DNA of 64,000 nucleotides, taken from the NCBI RefSeq assembly GCF_022808775.1, contig NZ_JAKZLA010000001.1, positions 62,001 through 126,000 of the forward strand, written 5' to 3'. A model generated the notes under the pieces. That model did not search any database and had not been told where the DNA came from. It saw only the letters and a program-made list of their open reading frames with translations. Position 1 is the stretch's first letter, and each line of letters opens with the position of its first letter. The position numbers and the translations under genes are program-made. Source of the DNA: Geothrix terrae (lineage in GTDB: Bacteria; Acidobacteriota; Holophagae; Holophagales; Holophagaceae). Positions 2,999 to 8,938 of the stretch are shown piece by piece.

Positions 2999-4054
2999 TC
3001 ACACCGCGTCGGCGATAGCCTTGCCCATGTCGGATGTGCTGGCCTTGCCGCCCATGTCGGGGGTGCGGGGACCCGTGGCCAGCACCTTCTCGATGGCGGC
3101 GGTGACGGAGGCGGCAGCTTCGGGGCAGCCGAGGTGGTCCAGCATCATGGCGCCGGCCCAGATCTGGCCGATGGGATTGGCGATGCCCTTGCCGTAGATG
3201 TCTGGCGCCGAGCCGTGGACGGGTTCGAACATGGAGGGGAACTCGCGCTCGGGGTTCAGGTTGGCGCTGGGGGCGATGGCGATGGTGCCCGTGCAGCCGG
3301 GGCCCAGGTCCGACAGGATGTCGCCGAAGAGGTTGGAGCCCACCACCACGTCGAACCAGTGCGGGTTGCGCACGAAGTGGGCGCAGAGGATGTCGATGTG
3401 GAACTGGTCCACCTTCACGTCGGGGTACTTCGCACCCATGGCCTTCACCCGCTCGTCCCAGTAGGGCATGGTGATGGCGATGCCGTTGGACTTGGTGGCC
3501 GAGGTGAGGTGCTTCTTCGGGCGCTTCTGGGCCAGGTCGAAGGCGTACTTCAGGATGCGGTCCACGCCCTGGCGGGTGAAGACGGTCTGCTGGACGGCCA
3601 TCTCCTGGTCGGTCCCTTCGTAGAGCCGGCCGCCGATGCTGGAGTACTCACCCTCGTTGTTCTCTCGCACCACGATGAAGTCGATGTCGCCTTCCTTGCG
3701 GCCCGCGAGGGGGCAGGGCACGCCGGGCATGAGCTTCACCGGGCGGACGTTGGCGTACTGCTTGAAGGCGCGTCGGATGGGGATGAGCAGGCCCCAGAGC
3801 GAGACGTGGTCGGGGACGCCGGGGAAGCCCACGGCCCCGAGGAAGATGGCGTCGTGGTGCCGGATGCGGTCCAGGCCGTCCTCGGGCATCATGCGGCCAG
3901 TCTCGAGGAAGTACTCGCAGCTCCAGGGGAACTGGTCCCACTGGAAACGGAGGCCATGTTTCGCCGCGGCGGCCTCCAGCACCCGGATGCCTTCGGGCAC
4001 CACTTCCTTGCCGATGCCATCACCAGGAATGACCGCGATCCTCAAGTCACGCAT
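2999..4054 (-). CDS. Tartrate / D-malate dehydrogenase (isopropylmalate dehydrogenase superfamily)
   Basis: Translation from the ATG at 4054, with GGAG seven bases upstream, gives 351 residues. The N-terminus carries IAVIPGDGIGKEV, the NAD-binding start typical of beta-decarboxylating dehydrogenases. FPWSCEYFLETGRMMP, GAVGFPGVPDHVSLWG and KQYANVRPVKLMPG are characteristic of the TtuC/DmlA branch rather than LeuB. The catalytic Lys and Asp regions (TSATKSNGI, VVGSNLFGDILSDL) and GSAPDIYGKGIANP are intact. The family oxidises D-malate or tartrate with NAD and may decarboxylate. Divergent from the DASS carrier at 4202, it could act on imported hydroxy-dicarboxylates. Substrate choice cannot be set from sequence, and a LeuB role cannot be excluded because leuC and leuD lie at the other end of the window. 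Its last codons are duplicated at 515-568. Confidence 0.85.
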   Translation of the reverse strand: MRDLRIAVIPGDGIGKEVVPEGIRVLEAAAAKHGLRFQWDQFPWSCEYFLETGRMMPEDGLDRIRHHDAIFLGAVGFPGVPDHVSLWGLLIPIRRAFKQYANVRPVKLMPGVPCPLAGRKEGDIDFIVVRENNEGEYSSIGGRLYEGTDQEMAVQQTVFTRQGVDRILKYAFDLAQKRPKKHLTSATKSNGIAITMPYWDERVKAMGAKYPDVKVDQFHIDILCAHFVRNPHWFDVVVGSNLFGDILSDLGPGCTGTIAIAPSANLNPEREFPSMFEPVHGSAPDIYGKGIANPIGQIWAGAMMLDHLGCPEAAASVTAAIEKVLATGPRTPDMGGKASTSDMGKAIADAV

Positions 4055-4201
4055 GGGGTGCTCCTGTGAAAAAGCTGCAAATGTATCTATTCGATGATGG
4101 TATGGGGCCGAAAGGCCGTGCAGATACCTCTTCACACTATGCGACTCAGGGGTAGACTACGCACCGAAATTCGACCCCCTTCCCACACATGGAGGCTCCT
4201 C

Positions 4202-5974
4202 ATGAGCCACGAACCCGTTTCAGGAACGGCCCCGGGCGGAGGCCTGTCCGGTTGGCAGGGCGCCAAGCCCATTCCGGCTTTGGCCACTTTGGTCCTCGGC
4301 CTGATCTTGTATTTCGGACTGCCTCAGATGGTGTCGGTGCCGGACGCCAAGCTCTTCACCGGCCAGCCCGCGGTCCCCAAGCCGGCCGCGGCGGCGCCCG
4401 CGAAACCCGCGGCCAAGCCCGCCGCCCCCACGGCCACGCCCGCTGCGCCAGCGGCTGCTCCCGTCGCTGCTCCGGCTCCCGCCAAACCCATGACGAAGGC
4501 CCAGCTGGAGGCCAAAGCGAAGGCGGAGGCGGACGCCAAGGCCAAGGTCGAGGCTGAGGCCAGGGCCAAGGCGGAAGGCGAGGCGAAGGTGAAGGCCGAG
4601 GCCGATGCCAAGGCCAAGGCAGACGCCGAGGTCAAACGGAAGGCCGACTGGGTGCGCGGGCTGCACCTCTTCGCCATCTTCGTGAGCACCATCGTGGGGA
4701 TCATCGTCAAGGCGCTGCCCATGGGGGCGGTGGCCATGGTCGGCATCGCAATCACGGCCCTGTCGGGCACCCTCGGCATCGCGGATTCCATCAGCGGGTT
4801 CTCCGATGTGACGATCTGGCTCATCGTCCTGGCCTTCTTCATTTCGCGGGGCTTCATCAAGACGGGGCTGGGCGCCCGCATCGCCTACAACTTCATGGCG
4901 CTGCTCGGCAAGCGCACGCTGGGCCTCAGCTACGGGCTGGCGGCCACGGACCTGGTGCTGGCACCGGCCATCCCCAGCAACACGGCCCGCGGCGGCGGCA
5001 TCGTCATGCCGGTCATGGCCTCGCTGGCCCGCGCCTACGGAAGCAACCCCGGGGATGGGAGCGCCCGCAAGATGGGCTCGTTCCTCACCCTCACGGCCTA
5101 CCAGGTGAACTGCATCACCAGCGCCATGTTCCTCACGGCCATGGCCGCCAACCCCCTGGCCCAGAAGCTGGCGGGCGACCTCAAGGTGAACATCACGTGG
5201 GTCGGCTGGGCGCTGGCGGCGGTGGTTCCCGGCGTCGTCGCGCTGTTGCTGATCCCGTTCATCATCTACCGCCTCCATCGGCCTGAGATCACGGAGACGC
5301 CAGAGGCCGTGGAAATGGCCAAGGGCCACCTGCGGGACCTCGGCCCTGTCAAACGCCAGGAATGGATGATGCTGGGCGTCTTCGTGCTGCTGCTGGTCCT
5401 CTGGATCTTCGCCAAGCAGCTGGGCGACCTCAATGCGACCACCTCGGCGCTCACGGGGCTGGCGGTGTTGTTGATCTCCGGCGTCCTCACCTGGGACGAC
5501 ATCAAGGCCGAAACCGGCGCCTGGGACACCCTGGTGTGGTTCGCGGCCCTGGTGATGATGGCCAGCTTCCTCAACAAGCTGGGCATGGTGCCCTGGTTCA
5601 GCAAGTCCATGGGCGGCATGGTGGCGGGCAAGGGCTGGATCGCGGCCTTCCTGGTGCTGGCCCTGGTCTACTTCTACAGCCACTACTTCTTCGCCAGCAA
5701 CACGGCCCACGTGGCCTCGATGTACGCGGCCTTCCTCGGCGTATCCATCGTGGCCGGCGCACCGCCCGTGCTGGCGGCCCTGGTGCTCGCGTTCTTCAGC
5801 AACCTCTTCGCCGGCATGACCCACTACGGGACGGGCCCGGCGCCGGTGCTCTTCGGCACCGGCTATGTGGAGCTCGGCACCTGGTGGCGGACGGGGCTCA
5901 TCGTGAGCGTCGTGAACATCGTCATCTGGGTGGGCCTCGGCGGCCTGTGGTGGAAGGTGCTGGGGCTCTGGTAG
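4202..5974 (+). CDS. DASS-family dicarboxylate carrier with a TolA-like periplasmic insert
   Basis: The ATG at 4202 follows GGAGG by seven bases and gives 590 residues. From about residue 150 it is a normal SLC13/DASS carrier: [24 protein letters not shown], the Na+/substrate signature [17 protein letters not shown] and a second half with [17 protein letters not shown] and [13 protein letters not shown]. These carriers import succinate, malate, tartrate or citrate with Na+ or exchange them. Unusually, residues of about 55-95 are Pro/Ala-rich and residues of about 97-148 form a charged Ala/Lys/Glu repeat ([11 protein letters not shown]-like) resembling TolA domain II, placed between TM1 (residues 23-45) and the rest of the carrier. 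By family topology this lies in the periplasm. It is divergent from the tartrate/D-malate dehydrogenase and ends at a shared terminator. Confidence 0.85.
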
Positions 5975-5987
5975 CGCCCGTGCAGCC

Positions 5988-6023
5988 ATGAGAAAGCCCC
6001 GCCAGCCGGCGGGGCTTTCTCAT
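5988..6023. terminator. Bidirectional Rho-independent terminator
   Basis: A GC-rich stem (AGCCCCGCC / GGCGGGGCT) extends into GAGAAA / TTTCTC arms, giving a T-rich end on both strands. It sits between the convergent DASS and dcu genes and can stop transcription from both sides. Confidence 0.85.
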
Positions 6024-6038: not shown

Positions 6039-7376
6039 TCAGGCGAGGAGCTTCGACAACCCGAAGGCGACGCAGGTGGAGACGCTGACGCCGATGAGGC
6101 CGGGGATCATGAAGCTGTGGTTGAGGAGGTACTTGCCGATCCGCGTGGTGCCGGTGCGGTCCATGTTGATGGCGGCGAGGTCGCTGGGGTAGAAGGCGAA
6201 GAAGAAGTAGGCGTAGCTGGCGGGGATGAGGCCCAGCAGCAGGGGCGTGGGCAGGCCCAGGGCGTAGCCGAAGGGCAGCATGATGGTGAGCGTGGCGGCC
6301 TGGCTCTTCACGAAGGCGGACACGCAGAACATGGCGATGGCGAAGGTCCAGGGAGCCATCTGCACCATGGCCTTGATGTGGGCCACCAGGTAGCCCTCGT
6401 TGGCCTTGATGAAGGTCTCGCTCATCCAGGCGATGCCGAAGATGGAGACGACGGCGATCATGCCCGCGATGAAGACGCTGGAGCGGGCGATCTCGGGGGC
6501 CTTCACTTCCGTGGCGAACAGGATGAAGGCGCCGAAGGCCAGCATGATGACCTGCACGACTGTGGTCATGGGGATGGGCTTGCCGTTCGCCATGGGCAGC
6601 AGGCCGGGCTTGAGGGCGATGAGCACGATGGTGAGCACGCCGGCGAAGAAGAGGCCCACGGAGAGCTTGGCCTTGAAGGGGATCACCTTGTCCAGGGTGG
6701 TGACGTCGCCTTCCAGGCCCTTGGCGAAGTCGGGATCCTTCATGCGCTCAAGGAATTCGGGATCCTGGTCCAGCTCCTTGCCGCGGTTGAAGCTCCAGGC
6801 CGCGGCGGCCAGCACACCGATGATGCCGGCGGGCAGGGTGATGCGGACGATGTCGAAGAGGCCCACGGGGTGCCCGTTCTTGGCGGCCATGGCCAGGAAG
6901 GTGGTGACGGCGGCGGCCACGGGACTGGCGGTGATGCCCATCTGGGAGGCCACGCTGGAGATGGCCATGGGGCGCTCGGGCCGGATGCGAGTCTTCAGGG
7001 CCACGTCGGAGATGACCGGCAGCAGCGCGTAGACCGCGTGGCCCGTGCCCACGCAGACCGTGAGGAAGAAGGTGGAGAGCGGCGCCAGGATGGTCACGTA
7101 CTTGGGGTGGGCGCGGAGCAGCCGTTCGGTCAACTGCACCAGGTAGTCCAGGCCGCCCGCCACCTGGAGGGTGGCCGAAGCCGTCACCACCGCCAGGATG
7201 ATGAGCATGACGTCCACCGGCGGGGTGCCGGGGGCGACGCGGAACAACAGCACCAGCACGGCCACGCCCAGGCCGCCGATGAGGCCCAGGGCGACACCGC
7301 CCTTGCGGATGCCGATCAGGATGGCGCCCAGGACCAGGATGAATTGGATCCAGAACATCAACGCGGGGGACAACAT
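6039..7376 (-). CDS. Anaerobic C4-dicarboxylate transporter, Dcu family
   Basis: The start is the ATG at 7376, with AAGGAGA five bases upstream, giving 445 residues. The protein is almost entirely hydrophobic with ten or more membrane segments. The N-terminal MFWIQFILVLGAILIGIRKG, SSVASQMGITASPVAAA, GTGHAVYALLPVISDVA and the C-terminal FYPSDLAAINMDRTGTT are hallmarks of the DcuA/DcuB family. These inner-membrane carriers exchange fumarate, malate or aspartate for succinate during fumarate respiration, or take up C4 acids. DcuA and DcuB cannot be separated with certainty here. With the DASS carrier and the hydroxy-acid dehydrogenase it makes a small organic-acid locus. It is transcribed toward the DASS gene and ends at the shared terminator. 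Confidence 0.88.
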   Translation of the reverse strand: MLSPALMFWIQFILVLGAILIGIRKGGVALGLIGGLGVAVLVLLFRVAPGTPPVDVMLIILAVVTASATLQVAGGLDYLVQLTERLLRAHPKYVTILAPLSTFFLTVCVGTGHAVYALLPVISDVALKTRIRPERPMAISSVASQMGITASPVAAAVTTFLAMAAKNGHPVGLFDIVRITLPAGIIGVLAAAAWSFNRGKELDQDPEFLERMKDPDFAKGLEGDVTTLDKVIPFKAKLSVGLFFAGVLTIVLIALKPGLLPMANGKPIPMTTVVQVIMLAFGAFILFATEVKAPEIARSSVFIAGMIAVVSIFGIAWMSETFIKANEGYLVAHIKAMVQMAPWTFAIAMFCVSAFVKSQAATLTIMLPFGYALGLPTPLLLGLIPASYAYFFFAFYPSDLAAINMDRTGTTRIGKYLLNHSFMIPGLIGVSVSTCVAFGLSKLLA

Positions 7377-7549
7377 GCATTCTCCTTGAGATCGAGGGTG
7401 TTTGGTTTCTCCACCCCTCGCCCGGCGAGCGTAGCAGACCGATCGGTAGTTAATGGTCGCTGTCATCACTTTCTTTAGTTGGTAAACCTTCCCCCGGGGT
7501 GGAAGAAGGGCGCCGGGCCCGTCCCGCACCGGCTCCGGGGCAGGCTACG

Positions 7550-8938
7550 ATGACCTGTGAGCGCCTCCCGGTGATGCCCCTCCCCTTCCATCTGGTGACC
7601 TTGACCCACGCCACCTGGGACCAGGCCCTTGCCTGCGCCCGCAGCCTGGGTCCGGACGCGCTGCCTGAGCTGAGGCTGGATCTCTTCCCCGAGGCTGAGC
7701 CAGGGGAGCTGGTCCGGGCGCTCGGGGGCCGCTGCCTCGCGACCTGCCGGCGGCGATTCGAGGGCGGCCGCTGGCCGGACGAGGACGAGGCGGGACGGAT
7801 GACCCGCCTGCTGCAGGCCGTGACGGCCAAGCCGGCCTGGGTGGATCTGGAGTGGGACCTGCCGATTCCCGCCGCGCTCCGGGCCGCCCGGCCCGGGGTG
7901 GGCCTGTTGCGCTCGGTGCATGTGGCGCCCGGCGTCTTCGATCTGGATCAGCGGCTGGCGGCCCTCCCCGAGGGGGATGCCTTCAAGTGGGTGGGCTGGG
8001 CCGGACGCCTCGGAGATGGCGGCCGTCTCAGGCCGGCCCTCGCCCGGACCCGGGACCGCGGGATCACCCTGTCGGCCTTTCTCATGGGGCCCAAAGGCCT
8101 CGCCAGCCGGGCCCTGCAGGCTGCCTGGGGCGGCGCCTTCACCTACGCCGCTCCCGACGACGGGCCCGCGGCGGCCCCGGGCCAGCTCCCGCTCGCCACC
8201 CTCCGCGCATGGCGCTGCGCGGACCTGCCCCGAGACTGCGGCCTCTGCGGTGTCATCGGAGATCCGGTGCTGCACTCCCGGGGGCCGGCCTTCCACAATC
8301 CCCGGTTCCAGGCGGCGGGCCGGAACCTGCTGTATGTCCCGCTCCTGTGCGGGGAGGCCGCCGAGGCCGCGGAGGCCCTGGAGGCCCTCGACATCCTCGG
8401 CCTCAGCATCACCGCCCCCCTCAAGCTGTCCCTCCCCCGGGCCCTCGGCCTGGAAGGCCCGCTGAACACGCTGTGGCGCCGGGGACCGGACGGCCCATGG
8501 AGCGGCGCCAACACGGACGCCGAGGCGCTTGGACAGGCGCTGTCACATCTCGCCTCCGGACCGGTGCTGCTGCTCGGTGGGGGTGGGGTGGGACGCACGA
8601 GCCGCCAGGTTCTGGAGGCTGCCGGCCGGCCCGTGCTGCAGGCCTCCCGCCAGGCGCCGGCCAGTTCCGCGGCGGTGACCGCCTTCGCGCCCGTGGGCGT
8701 GGTGCAGGCCACCAGCCTGGGCATGGACCCCGACGATCCCGTCCCGTTCCCCGACCTCCTGGAGGCCTCCCGCCTCAGCGCCCGCTGGGCGGTGGAGTGG
8801 ATCTACAAGGAGGACACGGCCTTCGGGACCTGGGCCCGCCACGCCGGCCTGGCGCTGGTGTCCGGGGCCTCGCTCTTCGAGGCCCAGGCCGAGGCGCAGA
8901 GCCGCCGGTTCATCGCAGACTGCGGCCAAGCTGGCTGA
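7550..8938 (+). CDS. aroDE: Fused 3-dehydroquinate dehydratase - shikimate dehydrogenase
   Basis: Residues of about 1-200 are a type I dehydroquinase: PELRLDLFPEAE near the N-terminus, the His region SVHVAPGVF and the Schiff-base Lys region AFKWVGWAGR. Residues of about 215-460 are a shikimate dehydrogenase: GVIGDPVLHSRGPAFHNPRF, the catalytic Lys in GLSITAPLKLSLP, GANTDAEALGQAL and the NADP loop LLLGGGGVGRTS. Together they convert 3-dehydroquinate to shikimate in the cytoplasm. The HSxSP substrate motif reads HSRGP, a variant, and the dehydroquinase half is compact. The start is uncertain: ATG at 7550 or 7574, both with weak ribosome sites. AroD-AroE fusions are known in plants and some bacteria. 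A response-regulator gene follows after 33 bases. Confidence 0.85.
   Translation: MTCERLPVMPLPFHLVTLTHATWDQALACARSLGPDALPELRLDLFPEAEPGELVRALGGRCLATCRRRFEGGRWPDEDEAGRMTRLLQAVTAKPAWVDLEWDLPIPAALRAARPGVGLLRSVHVAPGVFDLDQRLAALPEGDAFKWVGWAGRLGDGGRLRPALARTRDRGITLSAFLMGPKGLASRALQAAWGGAFTYAAPDDGPAAAPGQLPLATLRAWRCADLPRDCGLCGVIGDPVLHSRGPAFHNPRFQAAGRNLLYVPLLCGEAAEAAEALEALDILGLSITAPLKLSLPRALGLEGPLNTLWRRGPDGPWSGANTDAEALGQALSHLASGPVLLLGGGGVGRTSRQVLEAAGRPVLQASRQAPASSAAVTAFAPVGVVQATSLGMDPDDPVPFPDLLEASRLSARWAVEWIYKEDTAFGTWARHAGLALVSGASLFEAQAEAQSRRFIADCGQAG

Follow-up and report, generated by a model that had tools for sequence, protein, structure and literature searches.

A predicted charged helix of conserved length in the TM1-TM2 loop of a Geothrix DASS carrier as a possible stand-off rod

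Why does an inner-membrane carrier of otherwise normal DASS type separate its first two transmembrane helices by a long Pro/Ala-rich and Ala/Lys/Glu segment? The question is raised by P0001, a protein encoded in a stretch of 64,000 nucleotides from Geothrix terrae (source genome of 14 contigs and 3.43 Mb), the whole of which is called the window here. The initial annotation had read the segment as a TolA-like repeat in the periplasm that might form a helical rod or spacer, possibly touching the wall or a binding protein.

The start of P0001 is supported by a GGAGG at positions 4191-4195 and by homologues that start at the same MSHE/MSQ motif. The Pfam profile Na_sulph_symp (PF00939) matched with 520 bits (cut-off 27, E-value 7.6e-156), from residue 153 only, and TIGR00785 matched with 418 bits (cut-off 199). 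A Foldseek search returned DASS structures, with 9mcr, 9mcu and 6wtw at E-values of 1e-25 or better. DASS carriers have two SNT motifs at hairpin tips (PMC9098524), and in P0001 such motifs are found at residues 259-261 and 499-501. DASS exchangers use Arg and His residues as cation surrogates, which in LaINDY are Arg159, His392 and His401 (PMC7553777). In our alignment these residues correspond to R263, H494 and H503 of P0001, suggesting that the protein is probably an exchanger of the DASS family. The strand opposite the carrier gene also contains an open frame of 589 codons (window positions 4220-5989, minus strand), a feature of high-GC DNA that we did not take as a gene.

Table 1. Positions of the carrier gene, its parts and its neighbours in the window.
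Feature	Position	Strand	Basis or remark
CDS of P0001, DASS/CitT-type carrier, 590 aa	4202..5974	+	stop included
TM1 (residues 23-43)	4268..4330	+	AF2 helix; alignment to TM1 of AtDiT1 and AtDiT2.1
Conserved post-TM1 segment VPDAKLFTG (46-54)	4337..4363	+	present in almost every insert carrier
Arm (55-97), Pro/Ala-rich, predicted disordered, length-variable	4364..4492	+	pLDDT, homologue lengths
Predicted rod helix (98-154), 57 residues; T98 as N-cap, followed by an (AKAKAEAE)-like repeat	4493..4663	+	AF2, length/charge conservation
TM2 (155-168), predicted continuous with rod helix	4664..4705	+	AF2
Conserved carrier core (155-590), with R263, H494, H503	4664..5971	+	Pfam, alignments, PMC7553777
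Tartrate dehydrogenase (TIGR02089)	2999..4057	-	adjoins carrier in most orthologues checked
Dcu-family anaerobic C4-dicarboxylate transporter	6039..7376	-	adjoins carrier in most Geothrix

The TM1-TM2 spacing of P0001 exceeds that of a normal DASS protein, with its loop of about 11 residues, by a net 104 residues. The insert is therefore present as first reported, but it is slightly larger than the estimate of about 95 residues. Its composition, Pro/Ala-rich and then Ala/Lys/Glu, had been described correctly. The view that canonical DASS loops are short also holds: in 9mcr, representing the closest solved structures, the TM1-TM2 gap is about 11 residues (residues 17-39 of the query correspond to 44-66 of the chain, and residue 155 to 78), and the loop is likewise short in the 55 listed insert-free relatives, where it typically reads PPPEGVDPKAWHLFAIF.

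The insert is composed of two separate modules and not of a single TolA-like repeat. The arm was delimited by the motif VPDAKxFxG and the N-cap box [ST]xx[EQ], and the helix by the N-cap and the HLFAIF of TM2; in the shortest forms the boundaries were placed by eye. The N-cap box is conserved in most insert carriers. In the AF2 model of P0001 (alignment of 72 sequences) the insert helix and TM2 form one helix, residues 99-168, with pLDDT values of 77-95, and values stay below 50 across residues 54-93 of the arm. The model of a paralogue from the same genome contains a helix at residues 106-175 (block means 57-94) and a low-confidence arm at residues 56-104. These models were computed without membrane and without dimer, and AF2 may over-predict helices made of Ala, Lys and Glu. 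They predict that the second half of the insert, previously taken for a free spacer, is instead an extension of TM2.

Charged residues make up 27 of the 57 positions of the P0001 helix (47%), and its hydrophobic moment is 0.05 at 100 degrees, 0.025 at 102.9 degrees and 0.91 at 180 degrees. Because the helical moment is near zero, neither a position along the membrane nor a classic coiled coil is expected of the helix, and an amphipathic helix at the membrane surface was ruled out on this ground. As for the side of the membrane, the insertion between TM3 and TM4 of LaINDY is periplasmic (PMC7553777), from which we infer that the TM1-TM2 loop would be periplasmic as well. DASS topology thus supports the placement in the initial annotation.

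Genome searches identified 47 distinct insert carriers, 32 orthologues of P0001 (group A) and 15 of the paralogue (group B), which is 61% identical to P0001 within the same genome. When the insert was queried against its own genome, the paralogue was the sole significant match (3.9e-8), the next matches having E-values of 0.1 to 9. A tree built from the core domain unites the insert carriers in one clade (support 0.63) that excludes the 14 outgroups. The insert was absent from the outgroup DASS proteins examined, and no insert-free close orthologue was seen within the bacterial family searched. Two distant matches with longer TM1-TM2 loops (G335 and G214) turned out to belong to another DASS type, one without repeats. 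Group A extends to a second family (f34) of the same phylum, where it was found in the two genomes G143 and G182. The occurrence of carrier and tartrate dehydrogenase together in this second family suggests that they were transferred horizontally between lineages. The carriers in question (L062, L064 and L066) adjoin a tartrate dehydrogenase and have a helix of 39 residues.

Among the 47 insert carriers the arm ranges from 19 to 64 residues, and it is Pro/Ala-rich in group A and Lys/Gly/Asp-rich in group B. The helix has 57 residues in 20 of the 32 group A proteins (61, 63, 64, 39, 24 or 22 in the remainder) and 56 residues in 14 of the 15 group B proteins, the exception being L144 with 29. 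By parsimony on the core-domain tree, arm length changed 32 times and helix length 9 times, even though it is the helix DNA that has the higher tandem repeat scores. Had the whole segment been a length-variable repeat with no conserved spacing, a function would have been doubtful; this description fits the arm, but the spacing set by the helix is conserved. Because the helix has only 22-39 residues in four lineages, its exact length cannot be indispensable in every case. In genome G092 both the orthologue L069 (24 residues) and the paralogue L144 (on C98, 29 residues) have short rods; the rod of the paralogue is long in G089 and G093, two other genomes of the same genus. Arm and helix lengths covary in independent contrasts (r = 0.41, p = 0.004; the sign agrees in 7 of the 13 contrasts with a helix change), which lends weak support to a hairpin-with-slack geometry. 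The ratio of arm span to helix span is at least 1.34, so that no homologue has an arm too short to reach along its helix. A shuffle test of this ratio (0/10,000) ignores phylogeny and was given no weight.

It is quite unlikely that the insert is a tolerated, functionless repeat expansion whose form was set by GC-rich repeat DNA and by protein-level constraints such as solubility. The insert DNA does have imperfect periods of 24 and 48 nt, arm length changes freely, and short forms exist. However, helix length was kept through duplication and speciation, and dN/dS of the helix is well under 1 (0.22 in group A and 0.28 in group B; the core has 0.10 and 0.14, and the arm, whose alignment is uncertain, 0.21 and 0.53). 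A change from K to E takes a single transition. Yet the helix substitutions mapped on the tree comprised 25 K/R swaps, 33 D/E swaps and 3 charge reversals only. Slippage-prone neutral DNA as the origin of the insert is thus disfavoured by the tests of length, charge and dN/dS. The conserved length and charge pattern, in carriers that form one clade, argue that the helix is under selection and is not free repeat DNA.

The P0001 helix has 23 pairs of opposite and no pairs of like charge at i,i+4 (z = 4.7). Over the 47 carriers the helices contain 841 opposite and 13 like pairs, as against 42 opposite and 120 like pairs in the arms used as control; since the sequences are related, these totals do not count independent events. 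Twelve of the 13 like pairs fall within six sequences with helix insertions of 4 or 6 residues. Together with the conserved length and the AF2 models of two paralogues, this pairing bears out the idea of a helical rod.

The same segment, nearly (AKAKAEAE)n and with a moment of 0.91 at 180 degrees, could in principle form beta-sheet assemblies that cluster carriers. Its eight-residue unit is nearly identical to that of EAK16-II, and EAK16 formed a stable beta-sheet despite expectations of a helix (PMC2387071). EAK16-II, however, is a free 16-mer that forms beta-sheet fibres, whereas the P0001 segment has 57 residues, is joined to TM2 and is predicted to be helical, with conserved N-cap boxes. 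Moreover, the alternation of alanine and charge is nearly strict in group A, but it is broken in group B and in L068. In L068 and the long group B helices, 4-7 of 23-28 charges are off phase and the number of like i,i+4 pairs is still zero. Because these alternation-breaking homologues continue to obey the salt-bridge rule of a helix, we regard beta assembly as highly improbable.

We favour, with a probability of roughly 0.6, the reading that the insert is a salt-bridged single-helix rod with a slack return strand, which sits on the static scaffold domain and acts as a stand-off. The TM1-TM2 periplasmic loop would have been elaborated within one lineage of DASS exchangers. Its second half would be a single alpha-helix of 57 residues that extends TM2 upward, by about 85 Å if straight, and the disordered arm, longer than needed, would lead the chain from TM1 out to the tip of the rod. 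Both TM1 and TM2 belong to the DASS scaffold domain, which is immobile during the elevator cycle. Since this scaffold stays still, the rod above the dimer would most likely be a fixed-length stand-off or spacer that takes no part in the movements of transport. The analysis computed directly the insertion, the limits of its clade, the conservation of helix length and charge, and the AF2 models of two paralogues; that the helix is real, stands upright on the periplasmic side and acts as a spacer is inferred.

Whether the rods stand alone is a separate matter. Designed Ala-rich helices of similar charge fraction (AEEAKKA and AAEAAKA) dimerised or oligomerised and failed as SAH (PMC5347031), and the P0001 helix, with 47% charged residues, may not stay a single monomeric rod. 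DASS proteins form dimers (PMC7553777), and a fixed helix length and register would suit an Ala-rich coiled coil between the two rods of a homodimer, or bundles of neighbouring dimers, by which the carrier would be stabilised or clustered. The high alanine content keeps pairing within the dimer in play, but the helix has no heptad hydrophobic seam and carries charges on all faces, and we consider this arrangement rather unlikely.

What such a stand-off might face was approached through the gene neighbours. Tartrate dehydrogenase and Dcu genes adjoin the carrier gene, suggesting that the substrate of P0001 is tartrate, a D-malate-type or a similar C4 acid. Further downstream lies a putative fused 3-dehydroquinate dehydratase/shikimate dehydrogenase (AroDE; window positions 7499-8938, plus strand), whose scores fall far short of the curated cut-offs of both enzymes. 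At loci L047 and L053 the Dcu gene was not found at its usual place, and AroDE directly follows the carrier. No gene for a binding protein or other candidate partner was found among the neighbours of the window's carrier gene or its family. Near the paralogue, in contrast, a TctE-like sensor kinase, a response regulator and an NMT1-like binding protein were present at all four loci inspected (L162:3198-9931, L163, L164 and L166); a porin was found in L162, L163 and L166 but not in L164, and no ABC permease was seen near these loci in the four genomes. The genes of this neighbourhood could form a set for sensing, or the binding protein could assist the DASS carrier. The neighbourhood also offers an argument for the rod as a docking mast for the wall, a porin of the outer membrane or a binding protein of the periplasm. 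We consider such docking very unlikely: the window's gene family lacks these neighbours and yet has the same rod, and the rod tip has no binding motif and no likeness to a binding domain. For the window's gene, no evidence was found that the rod touches the wall or a binding protein. In its broader form, a fixed-length mast, grown by extending a scaffold TM helix into the periplasm, that sets the spacing or register of the carrier relative to the wall, a porin, a binding protein or neighbouring carriers, the idea still seems doubtful.

If the stand-off reading is correct, P0001 and its relatives offer, on an elevator transporter of a well-studied kind, a stand-off that occurs in nature and can be deleted; natural variants with short and with long rods are available. 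The organisation of carriers in the envelope and the benefit of a rod of fixed length would then become directly testable. More generally, an insert classed as low-complexity can hold a strongly conserved length and charge. To our knowledge, and within a limited literature search, no DASS carrier with a transmembrane helix extended as a periplasmic rod has been described.

With TolA, the first comparison proposed, P0001 shares composition only. Profiles of TolA scored 19.8 bits (cut-off 213) and 19.3 bits (cut-off 59.45), and P0001 contains no domain I or III and no further domain, so TolA homology was ruled out. TolA domain II resembles the insert in its helical Ala/Lys/Glu make-up and periplasmic setting. 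However, TolA has a single TM, domain II and a C-terminal domain III, whereas P0001 is a polytopic carrier that has the insert in its TM1-TM2 loop. The copy number of the TolA repeat differs among E. coli strains (PMC3477136), whereas the helix length in the P0001 family is nearly fixed. Outside the gamma-proteobacteria TolA domain II is mostly Pro-rich (PMC12204202), and mixed Pro-rich and helical spacers are for this reason a recurrent periplasmic design and no mark of common descent.

The exchanger LaINDY and the chloroplast exchangers AtDiT1 and AtDiT2.1 share fold, family and exchanger residues with P0001, but the periplasmic insertion of LaINDY is a different one, between TM3 and TM4, and the TM1-TM2 loop of AtDiT1 has about 11 residues. 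For the rod itself the closest parallel may be with SAH (ER/K) domains, as in myosin-6 or the designed AEEEKKK, which are long charged helices with i,i+4 salt bridges and no hydrophobic seam and which serve as rigid connectors. The P0001 rod differs from these in having more alanine and in being fused end to end with a TM helix of a transporter, and the insert in being anchored at both ends in one membrane protein. Judged by its charge pattern, the P0001 helix would work like an SAH domain, a resemblance that does not prove SAH identity.
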